Part shown: positions 3,662-51,096 of the stretch, in pieces
Position numbering within the stretch: the first letter of the stretch is position 1
How the letters are laid out: each line of letters opens with the position of its first letter
NCBI RefSeq assembly: GCF_900188225.1
Contig: NZ_FZOC01000005.1
Span: forward strand, 62,001 to 126,000
Reading direction: 5' to 3'
Source of the DNA: Humidesulfovibrio mexicanus
Lineage (GTDB): Bacteria > Desulfobacterota > Desulfovibrionia > Desulfovibrionales > Desulfovibrionaceae
DNA length: 64,000 nucleotides
Made by a program: the position numbers and the translations under genes
The notes under the pieces: generated by a model
Database searches by the model: none
What the model was told of the DNA's origin: nothing
The model's input: only the letters and a program-made list of their open reading frames with translations

Positions 3662-4361
3662 AGATGTCCTTCAGGTTCGCTTCGGTGAAGACTTCGGCCG
3701 TGGGGCCGTCGAGCGCCACCCGCCCGCCCTTGAGGAAGATCAGCCGGGGGCAGTACAGGGCGGCCAGGTTCAGGTCGTGGGCCGCGGCCAGCACCGTGCC
3801 GCCAGCCCTGTGCTGTGCGGCCAGCAGGTCGAAGGCCTCCACGCGCCGGGCCAAATCCAGGGCGCTGGTGGGCTCGTCCAAAAGCAGCAGGCGGCGGCCC
3901 TGGCACAGGGCGCGGGCCAACAGCACGCGCTGGCGCTCCCCGCCGGAAAGCCCGCAGGCCTCGCGCGGGGCCAGCTCCTGGCAGCGGGCCTCGGAAAGCG
4001 CCGCGTCCACGGCGGCTTCGTCCTCCGGCCCGCAGCCGCCGAAAAATCCGGCATGGGCGTAGCGGCCCATGCGCACCAGCTCCCGTACGGTGAAGCCCTG
4101 CGGCACCTGCACGCTTTGCGGCACGCAGGAGGCCAGGCGCGCCCGCTCCCGCGCGGAGATCCGCGCCAGGTCTCGGCCGTCCAGCTCAACCCGGCCGTCC
4201 AGGGGCGTCAGCACCCCGGCCAGCGTCAGCAGCAGCGTGGTCTTGCCCGAGCCGTTGGGGCCGAGCAGGGCCGCGAACTCGCCCGCCGCAAGGCGCAGGT
4301 CCACCCCGTGCAGCACCGCGCGGCCGCCGTAGCCGGAGCGCAAGCCCGAAGCGCGGATCAT
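3573..4361 (-). CDS. btuD: ABC transporter ATP-binding protein (BtuD/FecE-like)
   Basis: A 262-residue ABC ATPase that powers corrinoid or metal-chelate import. Walker A is LLGPNGSGKTT (near residue 35), the Q-loop lies in SCVPQSVQVPQGF, the signature is GLSGGERQRV, Walker B is RLLLLDEPTSALD, and the switch histidine is in AAAHDLNLAA. The ATG overlaps the permease stop (ATGA), and its 3' end runs 89 bases into the binding-protein gene. The order permease-ATPase-binding protein and the upstream riboswitch support a role in cobalamin uptake. Confidence 0.9.
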   Translation of the reverse strand: MIRASGLRSGYGGRAVLHGVDLRLAAGEFAALLGPNGSGKTTLLLTLAGVLTPLDGRVELDGRDLARISARERARLASCVPQSVQVPQGFTVRELVRMGRYAHAGFFGGCGPEDEAAVDAALSEARCQELAPREACGLSGGERQRVLLARALCQGRRLLLLDEPTSALDLARRVEAFDLLAAQHRAGGTVLAAAHDLNLAALYCPRLIFLKGGRVALDGPTAEVFTEANLKDIYETDIRVAPHPVTGAPQAHMVPGAGPGRP

Positions 4362-5521: not shown

Positions 5522-5522
5522 G

Positions 5523-6419
5523 CTAGTGGTCCAGTTCCTTCACGGCGTCCTTCAGGTGCTCGATCCACAGCCTGGCCACGGCCGGACGGCTGCCCAGGCC
5601 CGTGAGCTCGGCCTTTGGCGCGAAGCCCTTGGCCTTGAGGATGCTGACCCAGGAGTCCTCCTCGCTGCCGGCCATGTCGTTGTGGGCGTGGTCGCCGGCC
5701 ACGCTCATCAGCGGCAGCAGGTGCACGGTGCGCGCGCCCATGCGCTTGAGGGCCGGGATGATGTCCTCCAGGCTGGGGCTGCTTTCCACCGTGGCCACGA
5801 ACACGCCGGGATCCTTCTTCCACAGTTCCAGCTGCAGGGCGGAGTAAGCCGCGTTGGCCGGATGCTCGGTGCCGTGGCCCATGAGCACGACGGCTTCGCC
5901 GCGCCCGCGTTTGGGCAGGCTTTTCAACACGGCCTGGGCGGCCAGGGCGATGTCCTCGGGCGTGGAGAGCAGCGGGCGGCCCACGCTGATTGTGCCCATG
6001 GACTTGGGCATTCCCTCGAAGGCCTTGGCCGTGGCGCTGATGTCGGTGAACTCGCGGCCGGGGATGGAATGCAGGGACTGCACGGCGACCTCGGTGAAGC
6101 CCTCCGCGGCCATGTCGGCCAGGGCCTGGGCCGGGGAGCGCTTCTGCACGCCTTCGCCGGCGATCTTGTCGCGGATGATCTTGGAGGAATAGGCTAGGCG
6201 CACGGGCACGCCGGGGAAGGCCGCCTTGGCCTGCCGCGTCAGTTCGTCGATGGATGCGGCGGCTTCGGGCACGCTGGTGCCGAAGGCCACCAGCAGAATG
6301 CCGCGCTTGGCCTCCGGAGCCTTGCCGTGCTCTCCGGCGAAGGCGGGCGCGGAAAGGCAGAGGCACAGCAGGGCCGCGGCGAACAGGGACCAATGGAAAC
6401 GGACTGCGCGTGAACGCAT
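5523..6419 (-). CDS. cbiK: Periplasmic sirohydrochlorin cobaltochelatase
   Basis: A 298-residue CbiK-family chelatase that inserts cobalt into sirohydrochlorin. Family signs are ILLVAFGTSVPEAAASID near the start, the metal-site histidines in VVLMGHGTEHPANAAYSAL and LPLMSVAGDHAHNDMAG, and EEDSW following. An N-terminal signal peptide (hydrophobic SLFAAALLCLCLSAPAFA, cleavage expected after residue 28) places it in the periplasm, as known for the CbiKp form of Desulfovibrio. GGAGG lies eight bases before this ATG; an upstream in-frame extension would run through the riboswitch and was rejected. It is the first gene of the riboswitch-controlled operon. Confidence 0.93.
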   Translation of the reverse strand: MRSRAVRFHWSLFAAALLCLCLSAPAFAGEHGKAPEAKRGILLVAFGTSVPEAAASIDELTRQAKAAFPGVPVRLAYSSKIIRDKIAGEGVQKRSPAQALADMAAEGFTEVAVQSLHSIPGREFTDISATAKAFEGMPKSMGTISVGRPLLSTPEDIALAAQAVLKSLPKRGRGEAVVLMGHGTEHPANAAYSALQLELWKKDPGVFVATVESSPSLEDIIPALKRMGARTVHLLPLMSVAGDHAHNDMAGSEEDSWVSILKAKGFAPKAELTGLGSRPAVARLWIEHLKDAVKELDH

Positions 6420-6440
6420 GGGAACCTCCAAAAGCGGAGG

Positions 6441-6477
6441 GCGGAGTTGGGGGACGCAAAAAAAGCCCCCGTTCCGC
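6441..6477 (-). promoter_or_regulatory. Hairpin between riboswitch aptamer and cbiK
   Basis: On the minus strand GCGGA-ac-GGGGG and CCCCC-aac-TCCGC can pair, with a T-rich loop. The hairpin ends about a dozen bases before the cbiK ribosome-binding site. It could be part of the riboswitch expression platform, or simply a leader stem. The T-run is in the loop, so this is not a standard intrinsic terminator. Confidence 0.4.
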
Positions 6478-6569
6478 GCAACAATAGGCGGAAGGGAGGC
6501 TCCGTTTTCATCCCCTTGCGTGTCCCGTCGGACAAAAGCCCTCGTTGCCGACGAGAAGCCATGACACGT

Positions 6570-6731
6570 GTCCGGCAGGTCTTCCGGCTCACCCCATCGG
6601 CCCCGGCCTTCCCGGAAGCATTCTTCCAGTGGCGCGCTTGGGGGCTGACTATTCGCGGGGCTCACGGCGGCGGGTCCGCTCCCGGTTCGCACGGGATTCC
6701 CTTTTCACCCCGCGTTGGCGGGGCACCGGAC
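6570..6731 (-). promoter_or_regulatory. Cobalamin riboswitch (AdoCbl class aptamer)
   Basis: Read on the minus strand, the conserved cobalamin-riboswitch elements occur in order: GGTGCC, GGTGAAAAGGGAATCC, the GACCCGCC element, AGTCAG, GCCACTGG, CGGGAAGGC, GATG and AGCCGGAAGACCTGCC. The ends close by a perfect P1 stem (GTCCGG with CCGGAC). It lies 151 bases upstream of cbiK and reads into cbiK-btuC-btuD-btuF-cbiL. Expected behaviour from the family is repression of the operon when adenosylcobalamin is plentiful. Confidence 0.95.
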
Positions 6732-6763
6732 GCAAGGGCGATAGTATGCGGCGGCTTTCGCTG

Positions 6764-37031: not shown

Positions 37032-37745
37032 CTACTGCAGGTGGAAGCGGATGGGCACCTCGACCACAAGAGCCGTTTCCATCTTTCCCTGTGGCAGCAG
37101 GTGCGGATCGACCTCGGCCATGGTTTGGACCGCCGCATCGCACAGCCAACGGTGCGGCGCTCCGTCCGTCCGGACGGAATATTCTGCAATGCGCCCGGCT
37201 TCGTCGATGCGCACGCGCATGGTCACCACGCCCTCGATGCCGGCCTTGCGCGCGGCGAAGGGATAGCGCTTGGCGCGTTCAATGCGGCCAATGAGGGCCG
37301 CGACCAGCTGGTCGCGCAGGGCCGCGGCGCGTTGGATTCCCGATGGATTGCCAAGGGGCGCTGGTGCGTTCGCCGGGGTGGCTGCGCCAACGGCGGCGGC
37401 TTTGGGGGGCGCTGGGGCGGCCGAGGCGGCGGGAGCGGTGGGGGCAGGGGCCGGGGCCGTGAGCGGGGCCGGGGGCTGAGACGGTGTTGCGGGAGCGGGG
37501 CGGTGCAGTGGGGCGGGCTGAGGCTCCGCCTTTGGCGCAACCGGGGCCTGGGGCAGCGCGGCCGGGAGGGGCTCCGGCGCAGCCTGGACTTGGACCACGC
37601 AAGCCCCCAGGGGCATGTGCTCGGCCGTGGGCGGGCACAAGGCCGTGCTCGCCCCCCACAGCAGCATCACGGCGAGCACGCCGTGCAGGCCAAGGCTGAC
37701 CGAGGCCCCGATTCCCGAGGCGCGTTGTTCACCCACGATCCGCAT
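37032..37745 (-). CDS. tonB: TonB family energy-transducing protein
   Basis: A 237-residue TonB protein: short cytoplasmic N-terminus, one membrane anchor (IGASVSLGLHGVLAVMLLWG), an Ala/Pro-rich periplasm-spanning linker (residues about 55-155), and a C-terminal TonB domain (RIERAKRYPFAARKAGIEGVVTMRVRIDEAG). It passes proton-motive energy from ExbB-ExbD to the outer-membrane receptor of this operon. The ATG lies 16 bases inside the exbD coding region. It is the last gene of the haem operon. Confidence 0.92.
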   Translation of the reverse strand: MRIVGEQRASGIGASVSLGLHGVLAVMLLWGASTALCPPTAEHMPLGACVVQVQAAPEPLPAALPQAPVAPKAEPQPAPLHRPAPATPSQPPAPLTAPAPAPTAPAASAAPAPPKAAAVGAATPANAPAPLGNPSGIQRAAALRDQLVAALIGRIERAKRYPFAARKAGIEGVVTMRVRIDEAGRIAEYSVRTDGAPHRWLCDAAVQTMAEVDPHLLPQGKMETALVVEVPIRFHLQ

Positions 37746-38136
37746 GGTCTGGCTCCGTGGTGATGATGAAGTTCGTGCGGCCTTTGCGCCGCGCCTCGTC
37801 CACCACGCCCATGAAGGATTGGAACGGCGCATCCCGGTGGACCATGAAGTTGATGGGGACGCCGGGTTCCATGTCGAGCAGGGCGGAGTAGCCCGTCGGC
37901 TCCACCACCTGGTCGCCGTGGAGAACCCGGCCCTGGCTGTCGATGGTGATGACCAGCTGCCGTTCCCGCGTCTGGCTTTGGGCCGTGGCGGCCTTGGGCA
38001 GGCTGACGGCGATGGCCGGTTTCATGAACGTTGTGGCCAGGATGAAGAACAACAGCAGCATGAACACCACGTCGATGAGCGGCGTCAAGTCGATGCTGTC
38101 GTCGAAGTCGTTGTCCAGACCGAAATCCGCGCTCAT
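37729..38136 (-). CDS. exbD: Biopolymer transport protein ExbD
   Basis: A 135-residue ExbD/TolR protein with one membrane helix containing the proton-carrying Asp (DLTPLIDVVFMLLLFFILATTF) and a periplasmic domain. It works with ExbB as the proton channel that energises TonB. The start overlaps exbB by four bases (ATGA), and the end overlaps tonB. Confidence 0.94.
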   Translation of the reverse strand: MSADFGLDNDFDDSIDLTPLIDVVFMLLLFFILATTFMKPAIAVSLPKAATAQSQTRERQLVITIDSQGRVLHGDQVVEPTGYSALLDMEPGVPINFMVHRDAPFQSFMGVVDEARRKGRTNFIITTEPDHADRG

Positions 38137-38825
38137 GCGGCTCCCCTTCCCGCCGTGTCGAGCCGGGACAGCGGCGGCCTCACGGCATGGTCGGCGCTTC
38201 TGCGGTGCAGGGCCGCTTCTTCCGCCAGGGGGCAGGTGGTCTTGAAGCGCTCCAGGGCGCGGTAGCTGTGCTCGATCGCCTCGATATGGAAGCCCTTCAT
38301 GCGCAGGGAGAGCATGTAATAGAAGGCCAGGGTGGGAATGGCGATGCACAGCCCCTGCACCGTGGTCAGCAGCGCCTCCCATATGCCCCCGGCCAGAAGG
38401 GCGGAATCCGCATTGGAGCTTTGCGCCACCACCTTGAACACGGAAACCATGCCGAGGACCGTGCCGAGCAAGCCCAGAAGCGGGGCAATGACCGCAATGA
38501 GCCTGAGGAAGGTGATGCCCCGGTTCACCTTCTCGAAGTTGCGGTGGAACAGGTAGGCCACTTCGGCGCGCAGATCGTCGGAGTGGGAGCCGTGGGTCTT
38601 GACCACGCTGGCGATGATGTCGATGAGCGGGTTGGAGACCTCGCCGCAGAGCTGGTCGCGGTAGTTCCCCGTGCCGTTTTCAATGCGCGCGAAGCGGCGG
38701 CGGAAATCGCGGTGGACCATGGTCAAAAGCACCATGTTCTTGATGGAGAGGTACAACGCCACCACGGACAGACCGATGAGCACATGCCCAGCAGGACCGA
38801 CGAGTTGCAGAAATTCCAGGATCAT
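38133..38825 (-). CDS. exbB: Biopolymer transport protein ExbB
   Basis: A 230-residue MotA/TolQ/ExbB channel protein with three membrane helices: residues about 8-30, a second at LRLIAVIAPLLGLLGTVLGMVSVF (the typical core motif) and a third at ALLTTVQGLCIAIPTLAFYYM. It forms the inner-membrane motor with ExbD. The ATG overlaps the preceding split-barrel gene (ATGA). Confidence 0.94.
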   Translation of the reverse strand: MILEFLQLVGPAGHVLIGLSVVALYLSIKNMVLLTMVHRDFRRRFARIENGTGNYRDQLCGEVSNPLIDIIASVVKTHGSHSDDLRAEVAYLFHRNFEKVNRGITFLRLIAVIAPLLGLLGTVLGMVSVFKVVAQSSNADSALLAGGIWEALLTTVQGLCIAIPTLAFYYMLSLRMKGFHIEAIEHSYRALERFKTTCPLAEEAALHRRSADHAVRPPLSRLDTAGRGAA

Positions 38826-39304
38826 GCGGGTTCCTCCGCCAAGGCCTTCTCCTGTGCGTCAAGGAGCAGGGTTTCCCCGGCCTTTGCGCTGCACCGGCCG
38901 GTCATGTGGTCCACCTGGACCATGAACAGGGGACTGGCTTCCTTGCCGAGGAAGCGCTCCGCCGCAGCGCTGAAATCTTGCCCCAGCACCAGGCCGAGCT
39001 TGGCCCAGCCTCGCACGAGCAGGGCGTCATCCGCGACGAAACGGCCCCGGCCGAAGCAGCTCACCCCGGCCCAGCCCCTGACGCCGTCCCAGGTGGCGGT
39101 ATATTTGAGCAGCACCTTGTCGTTGCGTCCCACGTTCCGGAAGGTTCCGCCACGCGGGCTGATCATGAAACAGATCGTGCCGTCCAGCCGGAAGGGGGTC
39201 GCCTCTATGGCGTAGGGCGCTCCGGACTCGTCCACGGTGCAGATGGTGGCCCATTTGGCCCGCTCCACCAGTCCGCGCATCTCTTCTTCGCGCATGGGCC
39301 TCAT
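38822..39304 (-). CDS. Pyridoxamine 5'-phosphate oxidase-like split-barrel flavoprotein
   Basis: A 160-residue PNPOx-like split-barrel protein. It opens MREEEMRGLVERAKWATICTVDESGAPYAIEATPF, continues with CFMISPRGGTFRNVGRNDKV, and ends in a haem-utilisation type tail. The fold binds FMN or haem. In a haem operon it resembles the position of HutZ/HugZ, which bind or degrade haem, but it is a member of the broader NimA/PNPOx group and could equally be a flavin-dependent reductase of the haem breakdown product. It is flanked by ATGA overlaps on both sides. Confidence 0.82.
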   Translation of the reverse strand: MRPMREEEMRGLVERAKWATICTVDESGAPYAIEATPFRLDGTICFMISPRGGTFRNVGRNDKVLLKYTATWDGVRGWAGVSCFGRGRFVADDALLVRGWAKLGLVLGQDFSAAAERFLGKEASPLFMVQVDHMTGRCSAKAGETLLLDAQEKALAEEPA

Positions 39305-39834
39305 TGTGCGCCCTCCTTGGCGTCCGCTGTTTCCGCAAGAACGTTCGCGGCAACGCGAAACGCCTGCGCCGCGGCAAGGCGATCGGCCTCATCCGGGTGC
39401 GTTCTGGCGGTCTCTATGCGTGCCGTGCGCTCCGGGGTCATGGGGTGGTGCGCATTCATGGCCGAAACAACGGCCGGGTCGATTTTTCCCAGGCAGAGGA
39501 ATTCGCAGAGGATCTCGTTGTCCGAGAGGCGCGCGCGGGCATCGGCCAGTACGCCCCGGCCGTGGTCGGAGTCCGGGTTGGCCCCCATGGTGCCGAAGAA
39601 ACCCACCTTGTGGCCGTTGACGCGCGCCATGTACCCCAAGGCCTTGTCGTCCGGGCGCCCCTTGTCCACCCAGAACCCCAGGGCGATGAAGGTGAAGCCG
39701 TCCGGCGGCGGGGCGCTTTCAACGGGATGAAGCTCCGCGCCGCCGGGCATGACGGCGTGAAGCGCGTCGCGCACGGCCTCGGCCACGCAGCGGGTGTTGC
39801 CCGTGCGGCTGGAATAGACCACAAGCGCCTTCAT
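39301..39834 (-). CDS. Flavodoxin family protein of the haem operon
   Basis: A 177-residue flavodoxin-like protein. The FMN phosphate-binding loop is at the very N-terminus, VVYSSRTGNTRCVAEAV, followed by FIALGFWVDKGRPDD and VGFFGTMGANPDSDHG. It may supply electrons to the radical SAM haem-degrading enzyme or reduce its product; a flavodoxin in the Fusobacterium hmu haem locus has been described with such a role, which I recall rather than derive. ATGA overlaps join it to hutX and the split-barrel gene. Confidence 0.87.
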   Translation of the reverse strand: MKALVVYSSRTGNTRCVAEAVRDALHAVMPGGAELHPVESAPPPDGFTFIALGFWVDKGRPDDKALGYMARVNGHKVGFFGTMGANPDSDHGRGVLADARARLSDNEILCEFLCLGKIDPAVVSAMNAHHPMTPERTARIETARTHPDEADRLAAAQAFRVAANVLAETADAKEGAQ

Positions 39835-40358
39835 TGCGCGCCTCCGGTCGAAGGCTCGTAGCGGGCGCGAAGGGCGAGGAAGCCTGTGCGCACAGAGTCC
39901 AGGATGGCGCGGCGCTCGTCGCGGCCCGCATACACCGAGAACAGAATGCCGCCCGCGGCATCGAAGAACTGGACGCTGTGGCTTTCAAGCCCGAAGAACG
40001 GCTTGGACACCAGCCAGATTTGGGCCACCGTGTCGGCGAAGATGTGGCCGCCCAAGGGGCTGTTCTTGTCCAGCAGGTTGAACATGCCGTGGGCGGCGCG
40101 GCCTTTGGGCAGCCGACAGGGCACCTCCACGATGACGCCCGGGTTCACGGCGATGAAGGTGACCTTCTCCCAGCCGCACATTACTTCCCAGATGGTTTCG
40201 AAGTCCTGCGCCCGGGCCTCCACGCGCATGTCCTCGGGCAGGCTGCGGATGATCTCCGCCTCGCTGACGCCAAGTTCCTCGGCCAGGCCGCGCGGCATGA
40301 GGCTGGGGTTCTCGCGCACGCGGGCGCGCACCGTTTCCGTTATCTGTTCGCTGGGCAT
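39831..40358 (-). CDS. hutX: Cytosolic haem carrier protein HutX/ChuX
   Basis: A 175-residue member of the HutX/ChuX family of intracellular haem-binding proteins. Visible features are the helical N-terminus with AEELGVSEAEIIRSLPEDM, then FETIWEVMCGWEKVTFIAVNPGVIVEV and FFGLESHSVQFFDAAG. It would accept imported haem and hand it to the degrading enzyme. The ATG sits in a TGATG overlap with the ECF ATPase gene. Confidence 0.9.
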   Translation of the reverse strand: MPSEQITETVRARVRENPSLMPRGLAEELGVSEAEIIRSLPEDMRVEARAQDFETIWEVMCGWEKVTFIAVNPGVIVEVPCRLPKGRAAHGMFNLLDKNSPLGGHIFADTVAQIWLVSKPFFGLESHSVQFFDAAGGILFSVYAGRDERRAILDSVRTGFLALRARYEPSTGGAQ

Positions 40359-41818
40359 CAGGCGGCCTCCTTGGTCGTGTTGCTGTTGTGGGCGAGGGGC
40401 AGGCGCAGGGCGCAGTGGCACACCCGCCCGAGAAGTTCGAGATCGTGCGAGATGAGCACGACGCAGCAGCCGGCCTCCGCTCTGGCGCGCAGCCGGGCGG
40501 CGATGAGCCCCATGTTGGCACCGTCCAGTCCGCTTGTGGGCTCGTCGAGAATGAGCAGGTCCGGTTCCTTGGCCTCTCCGCAGGCCACCACCAAGCGTTG
40601 CCGCTCCCCGCCGGAGAGCGATTGCGGGTGCCTGTCGGCCAGGCCGTCCAGACCGTACAGCCGCAGCAGTTCCTGCACGCGCTGGCGCCGCTCGGCCTCG
40701 CCGCCGCAAGCGGAAGCCCCCCCGGCCGCGCGCATGGCCGAGTGCACCTCATCGGCCACGCTGCGCATGTGCAGCTGGTGGTCGGTGTTCTGCAGCACAA
40801 TGCCCGAACGCCGCAGCAGGTTGGACGGGCGGACCCGCTCGCCCTGCGCGGAGAATCGCGCGCCCTTGGCCGCAGTCAGTCCGGTCAGCAGCATGGCCAG
40901 GGTGGTCTTGCCCGCGCCATTGGGGCCAAGCAGGCCCACCACGCGCCCGGCGGGCAGGCGCAAAGAGGCGTTTTGGAACAGCGGGGCTCCCGCGCCGTAG
41001 CCGAAGCTGAGGGCGTCGGCCTCCAGGCTGTCCGCCAGCCCGGACCGGACATCCTCCAGCGCGGGCAGGCCGCAGCGCGGATCGTCCACGCTGCTTTGGC
41101 GCAGGCCGTGGCGTGCGCGCAGTTCCGCATCGTCGAGCATTTCGAAGGGGCCCTCCGCCACCACGGCGCCGCGCTCCATGACCAGCACGCGGTCGGCCAC
41201 GCCCCGCAGCCAGTAGAGCCGGTGGTCCGAAACCAGCACCGCCAGCCCCTTGGCCTTCAGCTCCACGAGCTTGCGCGCAAGGTCGTCGGTGGACTCCGGG
41301 TCGAGGTTGGCCGTGGGTTCGTCCAGCACCAGGGCGCGCGGCTCCATGGTCAGAATGCTGGCCAGGGCCACCTTCTGCTTCTGCCCTTCGGACAGGGAGA
41401 GGGTGGACTGCTCCAGCAGCGCAGAGAGTCCGAACTCGGCGGCGGCCTGCGCAATGCGTTCCGTGATGCGCCCGGGGTCCAGGCCGCGCCACTCGTGCCC
41501 CACGGCCAGCTCGTCGGCCACGGCGAGGGTGAAGAACTGGGCCTCGGGCTCCTGCAGCAGGGTGCCCAGGTCACGGGCGATGTCGGATACGCTCCGTTCG
41601 GCGTTGTCGCGCCCGCCTATGAGCACGCGGCCCGAAACGCGACCCTGGAAGTGCTGCCGGGCGAAGCCGTTGGCCAGACGCACCAGGGTGCTTTTGCCGC
41701 AGCCGCTCGCTCCGGTGACGAGGACCACCTCGCCGGGGCGCACGCGCAGGCTGACGTTTGAAACGGCCGGTTCGGGCCGGAAGGGGTAGGTGAAGCACAC
41801 GTTTTCGAAGCGGATCAC
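40358..41818 (-). CDS. ECF transporter fused ATPase (A1-A2)
   Basis: A 486-residue protein with two ABC ATPase halves. The first has Walker A VTGASGCGKSTL (about residue 35), the signature STLSLSEGQKQKV and LVLDEPTANLDPES. The second, after residue 280, has LLGPNGAGKTTLAMLL, SLSGGERQRLVVACG and LLILDEPTSGLDG. Fused A1A2 ATPases of this type drive energy-coupling-factor importers. The start is GTG (41818) with GGAGG upstream. With the T and S components upstream it makes a complete ECF importer, whose substrate here is probably haem or a related tetrapyrrole, judged from context. Confidence 0.9.
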   Translation of the reverse strand: MIRFENVCFTYPFRPEPAVSNVSLRVRPGEVVLVTGASGCGKSTLVRLANGFARQHFQGRVSGRVLIGGRDNAERSVSDIARDLGTLLQEPEAQFFTLAVADELAVGHEWRGLDPGRITERIAQAAAEFGLSALLEQSTLSLSEGQKQKVALASILTMEPRALVLDEPTANLDPESTDDLARKLVELKAKGLAVLVSDHRLYWLRGVADRVLVMERGAVVAEGPFEMLDDAELRARHGLRQSSVDDPRCGLPALEDVRSGLADSLEADALSFGYGAGAPLFQNASLRLPAGRVVGLLGPNGAGKTTLAMLLTGLTAAKGARFSAQGERVRPSNLLRRSGIVLQNTDHQLHMRSVADEVHSAMRAAGGASACGGEAERRQRVQELLRLYGLDGLADRHPQSLSGGERQRLVVACGEAKEPDLLILDEPTSGLDGANMGLIAARLRARAEAGCCVVLISHDLELLGRVCHCALRLPLAHNSNTTKEAA

Positions 41819-41829
41819 GCCGTGACCTC

Positions 41830-42597
41830 CTAGTGCATGGACATGCGCAGGCCGGAGCGCAGTTGCAGCCACACGGCCAGGACCAGCAGCCCCGCGCCCA
41901 CAGCCAATGTCAGGTAATCGACCCTGGCCAGGCGTCCGACGCGGTGCGCCGTCACCCTGGTCTGGCCGCCCACGCCCTTGAGCTCGGCGGCCATGGCCAG
42001 GTCGTCGGCCGAGCGCAAGGCCCGGAACACAAGCGGCATGAACAGCACCCGCACGGCCAGGCCTGGCCGCGCCGCCAAGCCCAGCGGGGAGCGGACATAG
42101 CCCCGGATGCGCAGGGTTTGCCATATCTGCCGGATGTCGTTGATGAAGGTCGGGATGAAGCGCACCATGACCGAGGCGGGGATGAACACCAGCGCGGGCA
42201 GCCGCAAGGACTTGAGCGCCGTGAGGATGGACTGCACCCTGGAGGTGAGCGCCAGCCCCAGCACCACGTTGATGGACACGACGATGCGCATGAAGGGCAC
42301 GACGAAACGCTGTATCTCCAGGCTGGCCATGGCGGGCCAGAGAAGCCCCATGCCCACCACGCAGAGGGCGGAGGTTCCGAGCATGAGCGCCACGGCGGCA
42401 TAGCTTACGAGCAGGCCTTTCACATCCCGCGCGGAGAGCGCGTATGCGACGCTTGCGGCCAGCAGCACCCCCAGGGCGGCCATGTCCGTCAGCACGATGG
42501 AGGAAAGCGATGCGGCCAGGCAGAGCAGCATCTTGGTGCGCGTATCCAGGCGGGCGGGGAATCCTCCCCCCCGGCTATTCCCGTACAATGCCCGCAT
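41830..42597 (-). CDS. ECF transporter transmembrane (T) component
   Basis: A 255-residue CbiQ/EcfT-family membrane protein. The N-terminus LDTRTKMLLCLAASLSSI is typical. About five to six helices follow, and the coupling region contains TLRIRGYVRSPLG and the Ala-Arg-Gly-like motif, here AELKGVG. It links the S component to the ATPase pair. It overlaps the S-component gene by 23 bases and ends 11 bases before the ATPase. Confidence 0.88.
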   Translation of the reverse strand: MRALYGNSRGGGFPARLDTRTKMLLCLAASLSSIVLTDMAALGVLLAASVAYALSARDVKGLLVSYAAVALMLGTSALCVVGMGLLWPAMASLEIQRFVVPFMRIVVSINVVLGLALTSRVQSILTALKSLRLPALVFIPASVMVRFIPTFINDIRQIWQTLRIRGYVRSPLGLAARPGLAVRVLFMPLVFRALRSADDLAMAAELKGVGGQTRVTAHRVGRLARVDYLTLAVGAGLLVLAVWLQLRSGLRMSMH

Positions 42598-43180
42598 GTC
42601 TCAGCTCCTTGACGAAGGCCACGCCGAACCAGAGGCCCAGCAGCGATCCGGCGTAGCCCACCGTCACCATGACCGTTGAGGTGACCATGAGCGCGGGCTG
42701 TTCGCGCATCATGAGCCAGGAGAAGGCCAAACTCAGGCCTTTGGAGAGCAGATCGTAGCAGCCCACCCCCAGAAGCAGCGGCACAGTGCGGCCGTACCCG
42801 CCCAGGGCCATGACCAGGGTCTCCGAGGCGAGGCCCGCCAGGAGCATGGCCGGAAGCAGCGCAAGCCCCGCGCCCATGAGCAGCAGCGACACCACGGCGC
42901 TGATGAGCGTGAACAGGGTCAGCGTGCCGAACACCCGCACCTTGTGCAGCAGCACCACCAGCAGCGCGGTGAACACGGCGTTCTTGAGCATCAGCGACAC
43001 CGGGTTCATGCCGCCTCCGGCCAGGGCGATGGCCAGGCTGGAGACCTTGATGACCGCGGCGAAGATGCCGATGGTGATGAGTTCGCTCACCCGCCAACGG
43101 CGCGACAGGCCGCCCCGTTTCCCGTCCGCCGACGCGGGAGAGGCCGCGCCGGCGGTGAGCATGGTGCTCTGGGCGTCCAT
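42575..43180 (-). CDS. ECF transporter substrate-binding (S) component, MptD-like
   Basis: A 201-residue membrane protein with about six hydrophobic segments after a hydrophilic N-terminus of 30 residues. It resembles the putative ECF S components called MptD, with VSELITIGIFAAVIKVSSLAIAL and LPAMLLAGLASETLVMALGGYG. S components define substrate specificity. Here the gene lies between the TonB-dependent receptor (TGATG overlap) and the T component, so haem or another tetrapyrrole is the likely cargo; this is inference from position. Confidence 0.82.
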   Translation of the reverse strand: MDAQSTMLTAGAASPASADGKRGGLSRRWRVSELITIGIFAAVIKVSSLAIALAGGGMNPVSLMLKNAVFTALLVVLLHKVRVFGTLTLFTLISAVVSLLLMGAGLALLPAMLLAGLASETLVMALGGYGRTVPLLLGVGCYDLLSKGLSLAFSWLMMREQPALMVTSTVMVTVGYAGSLLGLWFGVAFVKELRHAGIVRE

Positions 43181-45240
43181 CAGAACTCCGCTCCCAGGCG
43201 GAGCACGGCATGGAAGCCGGGGGAAACCAGGGCCGAGTTGGCCTCGGTATATTTTTCGTTGGTGAGGTTGTTCAGGTTGAGGGAGAGGCTGTATTTCCGC
43301 TCCCCGGTCCAGTCCAGCCCAAGGGCCAGGTTGTAGGTCTGCCAGTTGTTGTAGCGGTACAGCGTGCCGCTGGAGTCTTCCTTGGCCGTGCTGGCCTGGC
43401 GGGAATACGCATCGGCCGTGAAGCGCAGGGCCGCGTCCAGGTCGTGGAACCAGCGCAGGCCATAGCGGCCGAAGAGCGAGGGATCTCCGGTCTGCGAGGT
43501 CTCGTAGGTGTTGGCGTCGTATTTGCGGCGCAGGTACGTGGCCGAGACATACGGCGTGAGATTCCAATCCGCGAAGAGGTATTCGAGGGCGAGCTCGCCG
43601 CCGTAGGTGGTGGCCCCGCTGACGTTCTGGAACTGCGAGGTGGTGCCGGTGAGCGCCACGGTGGCGATGTAGTCCTCGGCCTTGCTGTAGAAGGCTGCGG
43701 CGTCCATGGTCCAGGCGCCATCGCCGTAACGCGCGCCAACCTCGAAGTTGTTGGAGGTCTCGGGCTTCAGGTCCGGGTTGGAGTAGGTCGGCCGGGAGGA
43801 GCCGTGCACCGTGCCGATGTAGAGCTGCTGCAGATTGGGGAAGCGGTAGCCCTGGGAGGCCTGGGCCCGCAACCGCCAGTCCTTGAAGCCGGAGTACACC
43901 AGTCCGATGCTGCCCACGGGCCGGTTGCCGCTGCTGGTGCCAGGGGCCAGGCCAGGGTCCTGCGCACTGTCAAGCTCGGACTTCACGATGGTCTCACGCA
44001 GGCCCATGGTCAGGGTCCAGTCGGGGGTGATGCTCCACTGGTCCTGGACAAAGGCGGCGTAGGTGTCCTGGTGGGCCTTGTTGGTGTAGGTGGAGTCGGA
44101 GGTCACCACCCCCAGCCAGGTCTTGGTGGTCTTGTGGTCGCGCGCCTTCAGGTCCTCGAAGCTGGCCTCGGCCCCGGCCACCACGTAATGCCCCCCGCCC
44201 AGGGTCCAGTCGGTCTGCAGGCTGGCCCCGGTGGTGTCCTGCCAGTTCTTGGTCCACAGCGAGGTCTTGGGGGCGAAGGCCGCGGGGTCGACGTAGTTGT
44301 AGAAGTCCTTGTAGGTGGTCTGGAAATAGGCGTTCAGCGCCAGTTTGCTCAAGGTGTCGCTGATGTCCTTGAATTCCACGAAGCCGGAGACCTTGTCCCT
44401 GGTCCAGGCCGGAAGATTGAGCTCCACCAGCGTTGTGCCGGACACGGCCGCCGGAACCTGCTCGTGGCTCCAGAAGCTGTCGGCGCGCAGGCCGAACTTG
44501 GCCTTGCCCAGCACCTTGTCCACATAGGCGGAGAAGTTGCGGCTCAGGTAGCCGGAGTCGTCCACGGGGCCGCCCGGGGCGTAGCGGTTGCCCCCGTCGG
44601 TGTAGGAGCCGGAAACCCGGTAGCTCCAGCCATCGATGCCGCCGAAGGCCGAAAGATACTCGGTGAGGGCGTTGGCCGAGCCGTCGAAGGTCTCGGCCAT
44701 GGCGAGCTGGATGGGCTTCTTGCCCCCCTTCTTGGTGATGATGTTCACCACGCCGCCGATGGCCTCGCTGCCGTGCAGCACGGACGCCGGGCCTTTGATC
44801 ACCTCGATGCGCTCCACATCGTTCAGGTCCACAAGGATCATGGAGCCGTCCATGGACTTCTGCTCCGGCACCTTCTGCCCGTCCACCATGATGAGCACGC
44901 GCGAGGGCGACTCGCCGCGGATGGTGACGCGCTTGACCCCGGCGATGGACTGGTCCAGCACCTGCACGCCGGGGATGTCCTTCAAAAGGTCGGCCACCGT
45001 GGGGGCGGGCTCACGTTCGATGTCCTCCTGCGTGACCACGCTGATGCTGTTGGGCGCGTCCTTGAGCTCGGTTTCCATGCGCGTGGCCGAGACGACTACC
45101 TGCCCGGTCTTGACTTCCTCCGCGCTTTTCGCCGCCCAGGCCTGGGCGGCGGAGGTCAGGCTGAGGAGCACGGCGCTGGCGAGCAGCAGCGGCTTCACTG
45201 TGTTGCGTTTTTTGCGCCTGCGGGGGGACAACGGGATCAT
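43180..45240 (-). CDS. TonB-dependent outer-membrane receptor (probable haem receptor)
   Basis: A 686-residue receptor. A signal peptide (LLLASAVLLSLTSAAQAWA) precedes a TonB-box-like VVVSATRME segment, then the plug domain (SISVVTQEDIEREPAPTVADLL, VTIRGESPSRVLIMVDGQ, VERIEVIKGPASVLHG, IGGVVNIITKK) and a roughly 500-residue beta barrel ending in Phe (VLRLGAEF). It would bring a large ligand into the periplasm using TonB-ExbBD from the same operon. Haem specificity is inferred from hutW and hutX; the classical FRAP/NPNL haem-receptor motifs are not seen. It overlaps hutW by four bases. Confidence 0.9.
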   Translation of the reverse strand: MIPLSPRRRKKRNTVKPLLLASAVLLSLTSAAQAWAAKSAEEVKTGQVVVSATRMETELKDAPNSISVVTQEDIEREPAPTVADLLKDIPGVQVLDQSIAGVKRVTIRGESPSRVLIMVDGQKVPEQKSMDGSMILVDLNDVERIEVIKGPASVLHGSEAIGGVVNIITKKGGKKPIQLAMAETFDGSANALTEYLSAFGGIDGWSYRVSGSYTDGGNRYAPGGPVDDSGYLSRNFSAYVDKVLGKAKFGLRADSFWSHEQVPAAVSGTTLVELNLPAWTRDKVSGFVEFKDISDTLSKLALNAYFQTTYKDFYNYVDPAAFAPKTSLWTKNWQDTTGASLQTDWTLGGGHYVVAGAEASFEDLKARDHKTTKTWLGVVTSDSTYTNKAHQDTYAAFVQDQWSITPDWTLTMGLRETIVKSELDSAQDPGLAPGTSSGNRPVGSIGLVYSGFKDWRLRAQASQGYRFPNLQQLYIGTVHGSSRPTYSNPDLKPETSNNFEVGARYGDGAWTMDAAAFYSKAEDYIATVALTGTTSQFQNVSGATTYGGELALEYLFADWNLTPYVSATYLRRKYDANTYETSQTGDPSLFGRYGLRWFHDLDAALRFTADAYSRQASTAKEDSSGTLYRYNNWQTYNLALGLDWTGERKYSLSLNLNNLTNEKYTEANSALVSPGFHAVLRLGAEF

Positions 45241-46640
45241 ATGGACTCCTCCTTTTGGTTGTGCATGTGCCAGTCGAGCAGCCCCTGCACCAGGTTCACC
45301 TGCCAGAACTGGCCGGCCAGGGTGAGGTCGACGCGGTTGCGGCGTCGGGTGAGCAGGCCCGCCCGCTCCCACTGGCGGAGCAAGGGATCGAATTCCGCCC
45401 CTGCGTCGAAACCGGCCGCGCGGGTCGCACGGGGCAGGTCAAGCCAGCCGCGTTCAAGCTGCTCGGAAAGCGAGCGCATGAGCGCCAACTGGAGCGGCGG
45501 ACGCGCCACTCCGGCCAGGGGTTTTTCCCCGGCGCGGCTTCGGGCCATGTAGTCCGAGGGGTCGGCGGTCATGAAGCAGAAGTGCCCCTGCAGGCAGCCG
45601 CCCGCGCCCGCGCCGTAGGCCAGGCAGTCGGCGCGGCTTTTCATGAGGGGATTGTAGATGTTGCGCTCACGCGCGGTGCGTCCCCAGTGGGAGATGGACA
45701 GACGGGCGGCGCGCATGTCCGTCATCAGCTCCACCCCGCGCCGGAACATCCGCGACTGCATGGGGATGTCGGCCACGGGGGCGGCGGCGCCGCTTTTCAG
45801 CGCCCGGTCGAGCTTGCCGCCGGGAAAGACGTTGAGCTGGTAGAGGTCGCAGCCGTCCAGCCCCAGGGACTCGAAAGTGCGCATGTCCTCCTCCCAGCTG
45901 CGCATGGTCTGGCCGGGCAGGCCGTAGATGAGGTCCACCACCACGGCTGCCGTGTCCATGGCCAGCAGCCGCTCCAGGGCTGTGGTGACCTCCCGCCTGG
46001 AGCACACGCGGCCCAGCGATTGCCGAAGCCGCGTGTGGAAGGTCTGCACGCCGATGGAGAAGCGGTTGGCCCCGCCCTCCACTGCGGCGCGCATCTTCTC
46101 CGGCCCGAAATTGTGGATGCGGCCCTCCACGGTGATTTCGCAATCGTTGGCCAGGGGCATGTTCTCGCGGATGCCCCGCAGCAGGCGCTCCAGATCCTTG
46201 GGCTCCAGGGCGGTGGGCGTGCCGCCGCCAAGGTACACGGCGTGCACGGGCTCGCGTCCCACTGCGGCGCGGCCGCGTTCCCGGCGCATCTCGTCGAGCA
46301 GGGCGTCGGTATAGGAGGCGCTCACCTCCTTGCGGTAGGGGGCGATGTAGAAGCCGCAGTAGATGCACTTGGTTTCGCAGAAGGGAATATGCACGTACAC
46401 CGCGCTTTTGCCTTGGCGCGGGCGCTCCATGAGGGCGGCGTGCAGCTGCAGCGCCTCCTCTCCTGTGACCATGCCGCCGCCCATGCCCGCGTGGACCGCG
46501 CGCTTGCGCTCGAAGGCCTCGGACAGCGGGTCCACCCCTTCGCGGGCGAACCATTCGCCTTCCCGCGCGCGCGTGGTCATGCCCACCCTGTTTATCCTTC
46601 CGGAGGGGCTGGTTTGTGTCCGTGCTTGAGCTGTGTTCAT
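45237..46640 (-). CDS. hutW: Anaerobic haem-degrading radical SAM methyltransferase HutW/ChuW
   Basis: A 467-residue HemN-like class C radical SAM enzyme of the HutW/ChuW group, which opens the haem ring without oxygen and frees iron. The 4Fe-4S ligands are Cys88, Cys92, Cys95 in HIPFCETKCIYCGFY; other blocks are VYLGGGTPTALEPKDLERLL, GVQTFHTRLRQSLGR and VDLIYGLPGQTMRSWEEDM. The C-terminal 90 residues form a winged-helix-like end. The Ala/Thr-rich N-terminus includes the substrate GGGMVTGEE segment. GGAGG precedes the ATG and a Fur-like box lies just upstream. It is the first gene of the operon. Confidence 0.92.
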   Translation of the reverse strand: MNTAQARTQTSPSGRINRVGMTTRAREGEWFAREGVDPLSEAFERKRAVHAGMGGGMVTGEEALQLHAALMERPRQGKSAVYVHIPFCETKCIYCGFYIAPYRKEVSASYTDALLDEMRRERGRAAVGREPVHAVYLGGGTPTALEPKDLERLLRGIRENMPLANDCEITVEGRIHNFGPEKMRAAVEGGANRFSIGVQTFHTRLRQSLGRVCSRREVTTALERLLAMDTAAVVVDLIYGLPGQTMRSWEEDMRTFESLGLDGCDLYQLNVFPGGKLDRALKSGAAAPVADIPMQSRMFRRGVELMTDMRAARLSISHWGRTARERNIYNPLMKSRADCLAYGAGAGGCLQGHFCFMTADPSDYMARSRAGEKPLAGVARPPLQLALMRSLSEQLERGWLDLPRATRAAGFDAGAEFDPLLRQWERAGLLTRRRNRVDLTLAGQFWQVNLVQGLLDWHMHNQKEESI

Positions 46641-46660
46641 TTGCGCCTCCAAAGGATTTT

Positions 46661-46679
46661 GAAATTCATTTTCATTAAC
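46661..46679 (-). promoter_or_regulatory. Fur-box-like operator before hutW
   Basis: On the minus strand the 19 bases GTTAATGAAAATGAATTTC match the Fur consensus at 14 of 19 positions and include the near-palindrome TGAAAAT-G-AATTTCA. It ends about 20 bases before the hutW ATG, overlapping the expected promoter. Iron-dependent repression of the haem operon would make sense. Confidence 0.55.
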
Positions 46680-46723: not shown

Positions 46724-47365
46724 TTACAGGCCCAGGGAGGCGACGATGGCGTCGCCCAGGGGCCGGGAGATGAGCAGGTGCTTGTCGCCTTCCAGGTCGG
46801 GCCACTTGAGGCGGGGCAGCAGCAGCACCCGTCCACGGAAAAACGTCATGCACTGGGCGACGATGGCCTGCCCCAGCACCAGGCTTTCAAAGGCCTCTGG
46901 CTTGAGCCCCTTGGCCTCGGCCGCGATGCGGCTGGCCGTGCGGTGGAACGGGGCGAGCACCTCGTTGAACAGGCGGTCGTAATACTTCTTGGGGGTGGTC
47001 AGGTCGTCGTTGAGGAGCACGGCCAAGAAGCGCCCGCTCTGCTTGCCGGTGATGGCCGCGATGACCCCGTCCACCAGCTCGCGCACGGCCGCCGCAAGGG
47101 CGTCTTTGCCGCCGCCGATGCGGGTTTCCGCGGCCTCCAGAAGCGGCAGGATGATCTCTTTCCATTTTTGCAGACAATGGCTGAAGATGGCATCCAGGAG
47201 CCCCTCCCGGCTGCCGAAGTGGTAGTTGATCATGGCGTGGTTCACCTTGGCCTCGGCGGCCAGGCGGCGGTTGCTCACCTCGTGCCCGTTGTGCTCGGCA
47301 AAGAGCCACGTGCCCGCCTCGATGAGCTTGGCCCTGGTCATGTTCTCGCCGACTGTCTGCTGCAT
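46724..47365 (-). CDS. TetR/AcrR family transcriptional repressor
   Basis: A 213-residue TetR-family regulator. The N-terminal helix-turn-helix is TRAKLIEAGTWLFAEHNGHEVSNRRLAAEAKVNHAMINYHFGSREGLLDAIF (start to end of the domain, residues about 9-60). The C-terminal ligand domain resembles the CerR-type group (FLAVLLNDDLTTP). Two tandem AACC-N4-GGTT operators overlap the -35 of its own promoter, pointing to autorepression. No copy of that site is seen in front of hutW, so control of the haem operon is not supported by the sequence. Confidence 0.9.
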   Translation of the reverse strand: MQQTVGENMTRAKLIEAGTWLFAEHNGHEVSNRRLAAEAKVNHAMINYHFGSREGLLDAIFSHCLQKWKEIILPLLEAAETRIGGGKDALAAAVRELVDGVIAAITGKQSGRFLAVLLNDDLTTPKKYYDRLFNEVLAPFHRTASRIAAEAKGLKPEAFESLVLGQAIVAQCMTFFRGRVLLLPRLKWPDLEGDKHLLISRPLGDAIVASLGL

Positions 47366-48555: not shown

Positions 48556-51096
48556 CTACTGGATGGTGTTCGGGTGGTGCGCATCCATGTCCTTGGCGAC
48601 CTTGTGGCACACGGCGCAATTGGCCTTGGCCCCCAGAGGGCGCTCCAGCTTCTGGTACTGCAGCGGCTGCACCACGTCGCGGCGCTTCCCGTAGGGGTTC
48701 GTTGCCGGGTACAGCGCGTGCTGCGGGCCGTGGCACGAGGGGCAGGAGAGCGCCCCCATGTCGTCCAGCCGCTCGCGGAAGCGGTCCGCCGGGGCCTTGG
48801 TCCAGTTGCCGAAGGCCTGGCTGGGGTCGGGCGCGCCGAAGTCCTTGTGGCAGGCCAGACAGTCGGTGGTCTGCACCCAGGCGGTGCGCGGCGGAATCTG
48901 CTTCTTGTCCATGCCCTGCGGGGTGATCGTGCTGATGAGCCGACTTGCCCCGCGCGTGCCCGTACCGGCCTCGGCCTCGCGCTTCAGCAGCGCCAGGGCG
49001 TGATCCTCCAGGTGGCCGTGGCAGGCCACGCAGTCCAGGCCAAGCTGGCCGTGCAGGCCGCGCAACATGCGCGTGCCGCCGTTTTCGCGGCTGGGGTGGC
49101 AGCGTGCGCAGGCCTCCGCGCCCTGGCCGCGCATGGTGTTGGCATGGAAGCCGTGCAGCGCGGCGGAGACGGAGAGCAGGTCGCCCCGGCCTTTGCCGCC
49201 GGTCAGGGGATCAGCGTGGCAGTCCGCGCAGCGTACGGGCTTGCCGCTTCGGGCCTGGGCCGCCAAGCCGGTGCGGTTCAGCCTGTCGTGGATGCGCAGG
49301 ATGTTCATGCCGGTTTCCGGCGTGATTGCGCCCTTGGCGTCGCCCCCGCCGTGGCAGGCGGCGCAGCCCGCCTCGTCGGACACGGGCAGGGCCGCGCGGG
49401 TGCGGGCCAGCACACGGCCGCTTGCGTCGCGCGCCTCCACCGTGGCCATGGGGTAGGGGAAGAGCGTTCCATCGGCCCTGCGGGGCGAAAGGGTGAGCGT
49501 GGCGTGGAACCAGTCGCGGCCGTCCAGGAGCTTCATGCCGCCGCTGGCCGCGCCCCCTTCCACGGCGTAGGTGAGGGCGACCCCGTCGGTGACCTTGGAG
49601 GGGCCGTCGCCGCGCTTGATGAGCTGGGCGTGGAGGCGGACTTCCGGCTCCCGCAGCGAGAACACGCCCGGAGCCCCGACAGCCTGATGCATTCCCTGGC
49701 CGGGCCAGGCAAGCAGCACGTATTCGTCCGTGGCCGGGTCGAAGGGCGGCACTTCGGCGTCCGTCTCGACAATGTCCACCGCAGGCTGAGGGCCGTCCGT
49801 TCTGCCCCCCAGCACCTGGGCCACATAGGCGGCCAGGGCGTCGCGCTCCTGGCCGTTGCCCACAAAGGGCGGCATGGCCGGGTTGATGGCGTCAAGGGCG
49901 CCCAAAAGCGAGGCCATGCCTTCCGTGGTGAGGCTGGCGGCCCAGGGGCGGATGTTGTTCATGGGGCCGCCGATGGAGTGGCAGCTTGCGCACTGGTGTT
50001 GGAACAGTTCTGCCCCGGCCTCCAGCCTGTTGGCTTCGGTCACCTGGCGGATGCGCGCCCATTTGGCCGTGGCCAGATAGCCCTGGGCGCTGGCGGTTTC
50101 CTCCGTGCCCACGCGGATGCCGTTGGAATAGGTGTGTCCGTAGATGAGAAACGGCTTGCGCGCGGCCTCGCGCACGAACTCGAAGCTGCCGATGACGCCC
50201 CAGCCCGTAAGCACCACCACAAGGGCCAGCGGGAAGCGGAAGCGGCCGGGCGTGCGGATGGCCAGGACCAGCGCGCCAATGGCCGCCGCTGCGGCGAAAT
50301 ATTGGAAGTACTTCAGGAAACCGGTGATGCGCGCCGAGCGCAGCATGACCATCTCAAACTGCGGCTGGGGCAGGGCGTGGATGTACCACCAGCCCGCGCC
50401 GACGCAGGCGGCCAGCGGCAGGATGGTCCAGGCGGCGGCCATGCGCACCATGCGTTCGCGTGCAAGGCCGGAGCCGTTCTCATCCGGAATGCGCGTGGCC
50501 GTGACAAAGCCGAAGAGCCCGGCCAGCGCCAGGCTGATGGCCGTGCGCAGGGCCAATTGCGGCCAGAAGGTCGGGTTCAGGAAGGCGTCCCAGAAGTCAC
50601 GGCTGGTGGTCCACTCGCCCGGCGTCAGCATGAAGCCCACAATGCCGTTGATCATGAACAGGGAGAGGAAGGCGAACAGGAAGTAGAACCAGCCCATGCG
50701 CATGTGGTCGCCCGGCTCCATGCGGTCGAACCCGTAGTAGTAGACGAGCAGCGCGACGATTTCGCCCAGGAAGAACACCCATTCTGTGGCGAAGCCGTAA
50801 ACGAAGACCTTCAGGAGCGTGCTTGTGGCCTGCGGCGACAACAGCCCGATGGTGAACCAGATGCCCACGCCCGTGACCCCGCCGGCCACCATGGTCACCA
50901 GCAGGAAGAGCCGGGCGTGGCGCTTGACGTGGGCCAGCAGCGCCGGGCTGCCCAGCCTGCGCGCGTACAGTTCGGCAAGCACGAGGTACAGGCCGCCGCC
51001 CACGGCGAAGTGCGCCAGGTACACGTGGAACGTGCCGATGAGGGCGATCCAGAAGCCGCCAGCCAATGCGAAAAGGTGCCAGATAGGGTATTCCAT
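48556..51096 (-). CDS. CydA-like membrane subunit fused to an octahaem cytochrome c region
   Basis: An 846-residue protein. Residues 1-330 hold about eight membrane helices resembling subunit I of cytochrome bd (TFHVYLAHFAVGGGLYLVLAE, TEWVFFLGEIVALLVYYYGFDRME, INGIVGFMLTPGEW). A class I cytochrome c-like segment follows with CASCH at Cys369. The rest of the chain, to Cys827, carries seven more CxxCH motifs (CAACH, CADCH, CARCH, CVACH, CLACH, CPSCH, CAVCH) in a periplasmic region. It probably passes electrons between quinol and c-type carriers rather than reducing oxygen. It forms a two-gene unit with the next entry, which starts upstream. Confidence 0.75.
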   Translation of the reverse strand: MEYPIWHLFALAGGFWIALIGTFHVYLAHFAVGGGLYLVLAELYARRLGSPALLAHVKRHARLFLLVTMVAGGVTGVGIWFTIGLLSPQATSTLLKVFVYGFATEWVFFLGEIVALLVYYYGFDRMEPGDHMRMGWFYFLFAFLSLFMINGIVGFMLTPGEWTTSRDFWDAFLNPTFWPQLALRTAISLALAGLFGFVTATRIPDENGSGLARERMVRMAAAWTILPLAACVGAGWWYIHALPQPQFEMVMLRSARITGFLKYFQYFAAAAAIGALVLAIRTPGRFRFPLALVVVLTGWGVIGSFEFVREAARKPFLIYGHTYSNGIRVGTEETASAQGYLATAKWARIRQVTEANRLEAGAELFQHQCASCHSIGGPMNNIRPWAASLTTEGMASLLGALDAINPAMPPFVGNGQERDALAAYVAQVLGGRTDGPQPAVDIVETDAEVPPFDPATDEYVLLAWPGQGMHQAVGAPGVFSLREPEVRLHAQLIKRGDGPSKVTDGVALTYAVEGGAASGGMKLLDGRDWFHATLTLSPRRADGTLFPYPMATVEARDASGRVLARTRAALPVSDEAGCAACHGGGDAKGAITPETGMNILRIHDRLNRTGLAAQARSGKPVRCADCHADPLTGGKGRGDLLSVSAALHGFHANTMRGQGAEACARCHPSRENGGTRMLRGLHGQLGLDCVACHGHLEDHALALLKREAEAGTGTRGASRLISTITPQGMDKKQIPPRTAWVQTTDCLACHKDFGAPDPSQAFGNWTKAPADRFRERLDDMGALSCPSCHGPQHALYPATNPYGKRRDVVQPLQYQKLERPLGAKANCAVCHKVAKDMDAHHPNTIQ

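Follow-up and report, generated by a model that had tools for sequence, protein, structure and literature searches.

A heme uptake and anaerobic degradation operon with a probable ECF-type heme importer in Humidesulfovibrio mexicanus

Importers of the energy-coupling factor (ECF) type, which consist of a substrate-binding S component, a T component and ATPases (A), classically carry vitamins. Transport of heme by such a system is experimentally supported for LhaSTA of Staphylococcus lugdunensis, where heme binding by LhaS was demonstrated and growth on heme is poor in a lhaSTA isdEFL double mutant (PMC7299338). The same source also cites heme ECF importers in streptococci and in L. sakei, the three S components being little alike. 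All of these importers are from single-membrane Firmicutes and operate without an outer-membrane receptor. The streptococcal importer is presumably SiaFGH. In a table of regulated genes, SiaF, SiaG and SiaH are listed as ECF components (PMC6593403). Here we describe an operon from Humidesulfovibrio mexicanus (Desulfovibrionaceae), located at positions 37032-46640 of the window (the whole 64-kb stretch of contig NZ_FZOC01000005.1 that was analysed), in which an ECF importer is encoded together with an outer-membrane receptor and the heme-opening enzyme HutW. As in LhaSTA, the S, T and A components belong to what appears to be an iron-regulated heme locus; this likeness is one of predicted function and of locus. 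The available text on the Lha locus makes no mention of HutW (PMC7299338).

In Gram-negative bacteria, the described route across the inner membrane relies on a type II ATP-binding cassette (ABC) permease together with a periplasmic binding protein. A review of Gram-negative heme uptake covers binding-protein-dependent ABC importers, and the term ECF is absent from its main text (PMC6449446). The hmuTRUVWF genes of Fusobacterium nucleatum and relatives resemble the present operon in coding for a TonB receptor, HutW/HmuW and the flavodoxin HmuF, and some clusters of this type also have ExbB, ExbD, TonB and HugZ (PMC10404700). HmuT, HmuU and HmuV are encoded in similarly built clusters of Fusobacterium, Campylobacter, Leptotrichia, Veillonella and Treponema (PMC10404700). 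While HmuT, HmuU and HmuV serve the inner membrane there, ECF S, T and A1A2 are encoded here. Import is by HutBCD in Vibrio cholerae and by ChuTU-HmuV in the chu systems, again unlike our locus. HutW and HutX are common to hutWXZ of V. cholerae, the chu operons of Escherichia coli O157:H7 and the operon described here, and hutWXZ is under Fur control (PMC12670364). A receptor-linked ECF heme importer of Gram-negatives was not found by title or abstract in the open-access literature among the matches listed, which is weak evidence as subscription papers are mostly outside that scope. A preliminary description of this DNA had spoken of a distinct route for heme iron. As heme ECF importers are known in Firmicutes, this has to be narrowed: what is new is the receptor-fed, Gram-negative form that is coupled to anaerobic heme opening.

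The operon comprises eleven genes, all on the minus strand, which form a single chain running from 46640 to 37032, as defined by open reading frames (ORFs) and profile searches of the window (start codons are our inferred choice). In this order, the genes code for HutW (45237..46640), a TonB-dependent outer-membrane receptor of the heme type (43180..45240), ECF S (42575..43180), ECF T (41830..42597), fused ATPases A1A2 (40358..41818), HutX (39831..40358), a flavodoxin (39301..39834), a PNPOx split-barrel flavoprotein (38822..39304), ExbB (38133..38825), ExbD (37729..38136) and TonB (37032..37745). Adjoining genes overlap by a few bases; only T and A1A2 are set apart, by about 11 bases. The chain contains neither a FecCD permease nor a type III binding protein, the hallmarks of an HmuTUV-type importer, and the absence of a soluble binding protein from the operon is as expected for an ECF importer. 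The ECF importer is complete, with an S component identified by its fold, T (PF02361, 59.5 bits) and two ABC_tran stretches in one ORF. Walker A, signature and Walker B motifs occur in both halves of A1A2, for which TIGR04520/04521 are the best matches, below their cut-offs. Only one other T gene was found in the genome. Thus, the preliminary description was right about an eleven-gene heme chain in which a complete ECF importer stands in place of a periplasmic binding protein and an HmuUV-type permease.

We consider it probable that the operon encodes a complete anaerobic route for heme iron, with the ECF module as inner-membrane heme importer. The gene content of the operon and the fold class of its S component were established here, as were linkage, co-occurrence and an operator-like site; the last three, together with genomes in which FecCD permeases went undetected, strongly support the role of the ECF module as the inner-membrane heme step, which the preliminary description had also proposed. 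Judged by its family and motif, the receptor, driven by TonB-ExbB-ExbD, would bring heme into the periplasm. Central to the proposal, the membrane-embedded S component would capture heme from the periplasm or from the membrane, and the dedicated ATP-powered T-A1A2 module would move it to the cytoplasm. S would thus take over the tasks of both HmuT (periplasmic binding protein) and HmuU (permease), and T-A that of HmuV. HutX and the flavodoxin, going by their families, would carry heme. By analogy to characterised homologues, HutW would open the ring and release the iron, leaving a linear product whose reduction is probably the task of the flavodoxin. Iron shortage would switch on the set via a Fur-type site predicted from the sequence.

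HutW is a HutW/ChuW radical SAM heme-opening methyltransferase (anaerobilin synthase) according to both its profile match (TIGR04107, 493.6 bits, cut-off 400) and its CxxxCxxC cluster motif, which reads CETKCIYC. The receptor carries the boxes YRFPNLQQLYIGTVHGSSRPTYSNPDL (motif YRFP...H...NPDL), a variant of FRAP and NPNL with a histidine between them, which we take to be the expected place of the histidine. Heme receptors are recognised by FRAP and NPNL boxes together with conserved histidines (PMC6449446). A regular expression for these boxes matched 34 of 62 receptor rows, with histidine in 13 and methionine in the other 21 at the position concerned; since a row may have gone unmatched through failure of the pattern, the motif was used for the window receptor only.

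The preliminary description had suggested to look for ECF genes beside HutW/ChuW in other genomes. This was done for a sample of 288 genomes of the family Desulfovibrionaceae, where HutW was counted above its curated cut-off and the surroundings of all HutW genes, including that of the window, were read. There are 36 HutW genes in 34 of these genomes, and S, T and A adjoin HutW in 30 of the 36 cases. Four loci are cut by contig ends (L041, L057, L069, L071), while two (L037, L042) lack adjacent ECF genes and have S about 30 kb away on the same contigs. At these distant sites (L215 and L216), S-T-A still adjoins HutX, in one case with the flavodoxin. When S was searched independently, it was found in 33 of the 288 genomes, 32 of which have both S and HutW (Fisher p ~6e-39, with relatedness ignored). 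Two genomes have HutW without S (G124, G184), their HutW contigs ending nearby, and one has S without HutW (G181, 84% complete). The presence of S is patchy (11 of 44 genera), and in the genus of the window only one of 15 genomes, the window's own, has either S or HutW.

Beyond the family, a scan of named genomes yielded 91 S relatives, the best 80 loci of which were kept; many of these are the same loci as in the family set. They are from Desulfovibrio relatives, other Desulfobacterota, Parasutterella, Sutterella, Turicimonas, Duodenibacillus, Mucispirillum, Kiritimatiellae, Lentisphaerae, SAR324, Cloacimonadota and others. In 69 of the 80 loci, HutW is on the strand of S and no more than 8 kb away. 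Counted in the same way and within score limits, T is near S in 78 loci, A in 75, the flavodoxin in 63, the receptor in 55, HutX in 45 and ExbB in 36. Where at least 3 kb of upstream DNA is present, HutW is beside S in 64 of 66 loci, the exceptions being L086 and L155. The distances of S and HutW sequences are correlated (Spearman 0.67, 66 loci) nearly as closely as those of S and T (0.74, 75 loci), a pair that must work together. On plasmids, the search for S relatives returned one insignificant match only. Because the arrangement recurs across the family and beyond, chance or a local oddity was rejected as its explanation.

A Fur-like operator, the palindrome TGAAAATGAATTTCA (46660..46674, minus strand), lies between a TetR/CecR-like gene and the hutW ribosome site. 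It has one mismatch to a Fur-type consensus, and no other site of the window matches this consensus with 3 mismatches or fewer (0.28 such sites are expected, and 25 of 100 shuffles contain at least one). Across the HutW loci, the best consensus match in 360 bases (300 before and 60 after the HutW start) was compared to shuffles. Sites with p<=0.05 were found in 31 of 82 de-duplicated upstream regions compared to 5 of 82 HutW coding controls, and matches at 13 or more of 15 positions in 20 upstream regions compared to none of the controls. Left out of the 82 are L086, regions with less than 300 bases upstream and duplicates; before de-duplication the count is 38 of 105. In lying in a heme/iron locus with an iron-type operator, the ECF genes agree with a heme-specific importer of the LhaSTA type. 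The TetR/CecR-like regulator (46724..47365, minus strand; PF00440 and PF09209) is located upstream of hutW in the same direction. In L046 and L070 a relative of the gene stands before HutW, and in L215 one stands before a cluster that begins with S and lacks HutW. This recurrence makes it a candidate for a heme-responsive regulator of the set, and a possible co-regulator of the operon.

The S component (201 residues, six helices) matches PF09605 with 33.9 bits, just over the cut-off of 28.7, and the match covers positions 2-130 of the 185-position Pfam model. Against TIGR02185 ("MptD") it scores 29.9 bits, far under the curated cut-off of 76.45. It thus resembles MptD/Trep_Strep S components in a partial profile match but misses the curated MptD score, and the name "MptD-like" used in the preliminary description holds at the superfamily level only. 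An AlphaFold2 model based on 63 aligned sequences shows six helices, with a mean predicted local distance difference test score (pLDDT) of 84.1 and a predicted template modelling score of 0.76. With Foldseek, the only match below 0.001 is 5edl, an ECF S component (E 5.8e-4). The 12 best rows of the VIA structure comparison are all ECF S components (Z 9.0-12.2, root-mean-square deviation 3.6-4.5, 153-171 residues aligned), and the next row is a methane monooxygenase subunit (Z 8.4); the row 4m5b we take to be NikM. According to the tool's own warning, Z values in this range are common among helical proteins, so the argument rests on the uniform identity of the top rows. Structures missing from the VIA and Foldseek lists were given no weight. 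The modelled fold settles the class of the protein, which is that of ECF S components. G56, G57, N59, P60, R159 and E160 are invariant in the 63 sequences, and position 58 is methionine in 60 of them. In the model, the invariant residues sit in the loops after helix 1 and helix 5, which form the ligand site in S components. The aligned HutW-linked S sequences have the motifs GGGMNP, RE and ELRHAGI in common.

Several observations weigh against heme import by the ECF module or against its tie to HutW. The best NCBIfam match of the receptor, TIGR01785 (TonB-hemin, 223.4 bits), stays under the curated cut-off of 316.85. There is no invariant histidine on the outer side of S among the 63 sequences, so that an axial heme ligand is not evident. 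HutW is not adjacent in 11 of the 80 S loci, nine of which have less than 3 kb of upstream DNA. For five of the 11, including L086, HutW is found elsewhere in the genome, and six genomes (those of L155, L137, L117, L121, L129 and L148; completeness not given) have no HutW match at E<=1e-80. The S loci of these six genomes are truncated in five cases, L155 being the one that is not. The receptor query remained unmatched in 25 of the 80 loci, some of them truncated, among them all ten Kiritimatiellae loci. Finally, an even draw of 345 genomes from the phylum served as control, with HutW accepted at E<=1e-100. HutW was found in 17 of these genomes, in 16 of them over the cut-off and in one below it with an internal stop. 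Ten of the 17 are devoid of an S match, and thus HutW does not require this importer. The seven genomes with a strong S match are all among the 17. A strong S match without HutW is therefore rare, whereas HutW can exist without this importer.

One of the ten genomes (G439, locus L197) codes in one run for receptor, PNPOx, ExbBD, TonB, HutW, flavodoxin, an S-like but highly diverged membrane protein, T and A. The membrane protein (L197:10960-11532, plus strand; 190 residues) is located between the HutW-flavodoxin pair and the ECF T-A genes, has no Pfam or NCBIfam match and reaches only 12 bits to the S profile. It is a candidate S component of a comparable operon, either highly diverged or recruited independently. 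In the other nine genomes, neither ECF T nor a FecCD permease was found beside HutW (two of the stretches are shorter than 6 kb), and in 7 of their 10 loci an ORF beside HutW looks like a flavodoxin from its first residues, the only part considered. A second type of HutW, with a histidine-rich N-terminus, occurs in L037-L039 and L042 beside a DtxR-type iron repressor (Pfam-tested in L039 only).

A further set of points on the opposing side concerns FecCD permeases (PF01032), of which the genome of the window has three strong matches and one marginal one. The first system adjoins a cobalamin riboswitch and a CbiK-like gene. In the window, at about 2693-6745 (minus strand), a cobalamin riboswitch (6557-6745) stands ahead of a CbiK-like gene and the genes for a FecCD permease and a binding protein. 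The second system, on contig C3, has a binding protein, a CobN homologue and a receptor which scores 195 bits to TonB-hemin and 174 bits to TonB-B12. To the third, no ligand was assigned. None of these is a clear heme system, although with three of them the genome may have a parallel heme importer. It could be argued that the ECF module can import heme but that the main flux in this organism passes through the receptor, binding protein and FecCD permease of contig C3, a view partly compatible with our own, so that the two are not exclusive. Its receptor with the higher score to TonB-hemin and the presence of a CobN homologue would fit. This homologue is, however, nearer to CobN structures (420 bits) than to the heme dechelatase HmuS (269 bits), which suggests a corrin or cobalt role, and we consider this alternative quite unlikely. 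An HmuS-like dechelatase at the contig C3 locus was rejected on the same scores.

FecCD matches (1e-10) were also obtained in 41 of the 48 S-bearing genomes. These counts are from a genome search; locus matches obtained with over-long "Fec" ORF queries, which may also match ATPases, were disregarded. The seven genomes without a FecCD match are G011, G189 and G273, which are 96-98% complete, G122 and G284, which are incomplete, and G632 and G633, for which completeness is not given. In the first three (loci L059, L043 and L055), no HmuU-type permease was found, and no dedicated route other than the ECF module is apparent (peptide permeases able to carry heme are outside this search). G011 and G273 have receptor, HutW, S, T, A1A2, HutX and flavodoxin, while G189 shows no HutX match and its A1A2 matches are in two pieces.

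The frequent FecCD systems would also fit an ECF module whose substrate is a tetrapyrrole related to heme or an intermediate of degradation (for instance cobalamin precursors, porphyrin without metal or non-heme metal porphyrins), with heme itself taking a BtuCD/HmuUV-type system. Distant S relatives that are encoded with a receptor and a BchH/CobN-like subunit point in the same direction, as the wider group may handle several tetrapyrroles. Against this stand the pairing of S with HutW, and often with HutX, the three nearly complete S-bearing genomes in which FecCD went undetected, and the Fur-like sites upstream. Moreover, no riboswitch was found in L033. We therefore regard a different tetrapyrrole as an unlikely ligand. 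Vitamin B12 in particular was rejected, because the sole cobalamin riboswitch in the five stretches searched (L072, L073, L074, L076 and L033) belongs to another permease cluster.

As ECF systems classically carry vitamins and the operon encodes two flavoproteins, S might also import a cofactor of the pathway enzymes, such as riboflavin or FMN. However, every one of the 33 S-bearing genomes of the family has ribH, which speaks against an import of flavin; this reading was rejected. In L116 and L126, S keeps HutW while neither flavoprotein was matched by the queries, even though the DNA continues. Together with the lack of a vitamin riboswitch in L033, this makes a cofactor very improbable as the ligand. 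Heme import by the ECF module remains the preferred explanation.

Relatives of S also occur in other settings. In L204 (2280-12190) and L205 (5641-14334), both on the minus strand, a receptor and a BchH/CobN-like chelatase-type subunit of 1247 residues are encoded with a distant MptD-like S, T and fused A. The large subunit of L204 is over the BchH cut-off, that of L205 was assigned by similarity to CobN, the S matches of both loci are weak, and in L204 the receptor gene is separated from A by one additional gene. In L214 (7031-12242, minus strand), which holds the one other PF09605 match of the phylum draw, the gene for the S protein, a stronger match (68 bits), comes directly after that for a TonB-dependent receptor and before that for an ATPase; the 20-kb stretch gave no match to HutW. 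These loci suggest a wider link of S relatives to tetrapyrroles. Tentatively, and with somewhat more reservation than confidence, we propose that the S clade is a widespread second solution for inner-membrane heme passage in double-membraned anaerobes (Desulfobacterota, Burkholderiales of the Sutterella/Parasutterella type, Mucispirillum, Kiritimatiellae/Lentisphaerae, SAR324 and Cloacimonadota), where heme would be handed from receptor to S without a binding protein. The relatives beside BchH/CobN-like subunits would do the same for other tetrapyrroles, and the S superfamily would be a general receptor-fed tetrapyrrole importer. If this is true, a receptor-fed ECF route explains how heme passes the inner membrane in anaerobes without an HmuU-type permease, and a ligand can be named for an orphan clade of S components. 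The prediction concerns a single gene and reaches Bilophila, Mailhella, Parasutterella, Sutterella and Mucispirillum.

Similar-looking secreted proteins with matches to Peripla_BP_2, just below the cut-off in L086, are encoded beside S-T-A in L086 (8883-9857, plus strand) and near HutW in L189 (328-1317, minus strand). This may indicate a possible periplasmic heme binder in some lineages.

The remaining genes of the operon were assigned by family profiles. HutX, a cytosolic heme carrier, matches TIGR04108 with 171 bits (cut-off 110). The flavodoxin, probably of the HmuF/FldH/BilS type, matches PF12641 with 131 bits and the NCBIfam model BilS with 80.7 bits, below the cut-off of 155. Its sole PDB match at E<=0.001 is 8g64, which is presumably FldH. 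FldH is a heme-binding flavodoxin (PMC10404700). The PNPOx protein (PNPOx_N, PF01243, 35 bits; model pLDDT 92.6) has no PDB sequence match up to E 0.1. Its Foldseek matches are of several kinds, among them a nitroimidazole-resistance-type protein, HutZ and HupZ, and do not place it inside the superfamily. ExbB, ExbD and TonB match PF01618, PF02472 and PF03544, respectively; the start codon of TonB is inferred, its ORF being open from 37832.

Near the operon, also on the minus strand, an ORF at 47591-48526 matches HSDR_N_2 (resembling the N-terminus of type I restriction R proteins). At 48556-51096 (minus strand) a protein of 846 residues is encoded, with an N-terminus like subunit I of cytochrome bd oxidase and several CxxCH cytochrome motifs further on.

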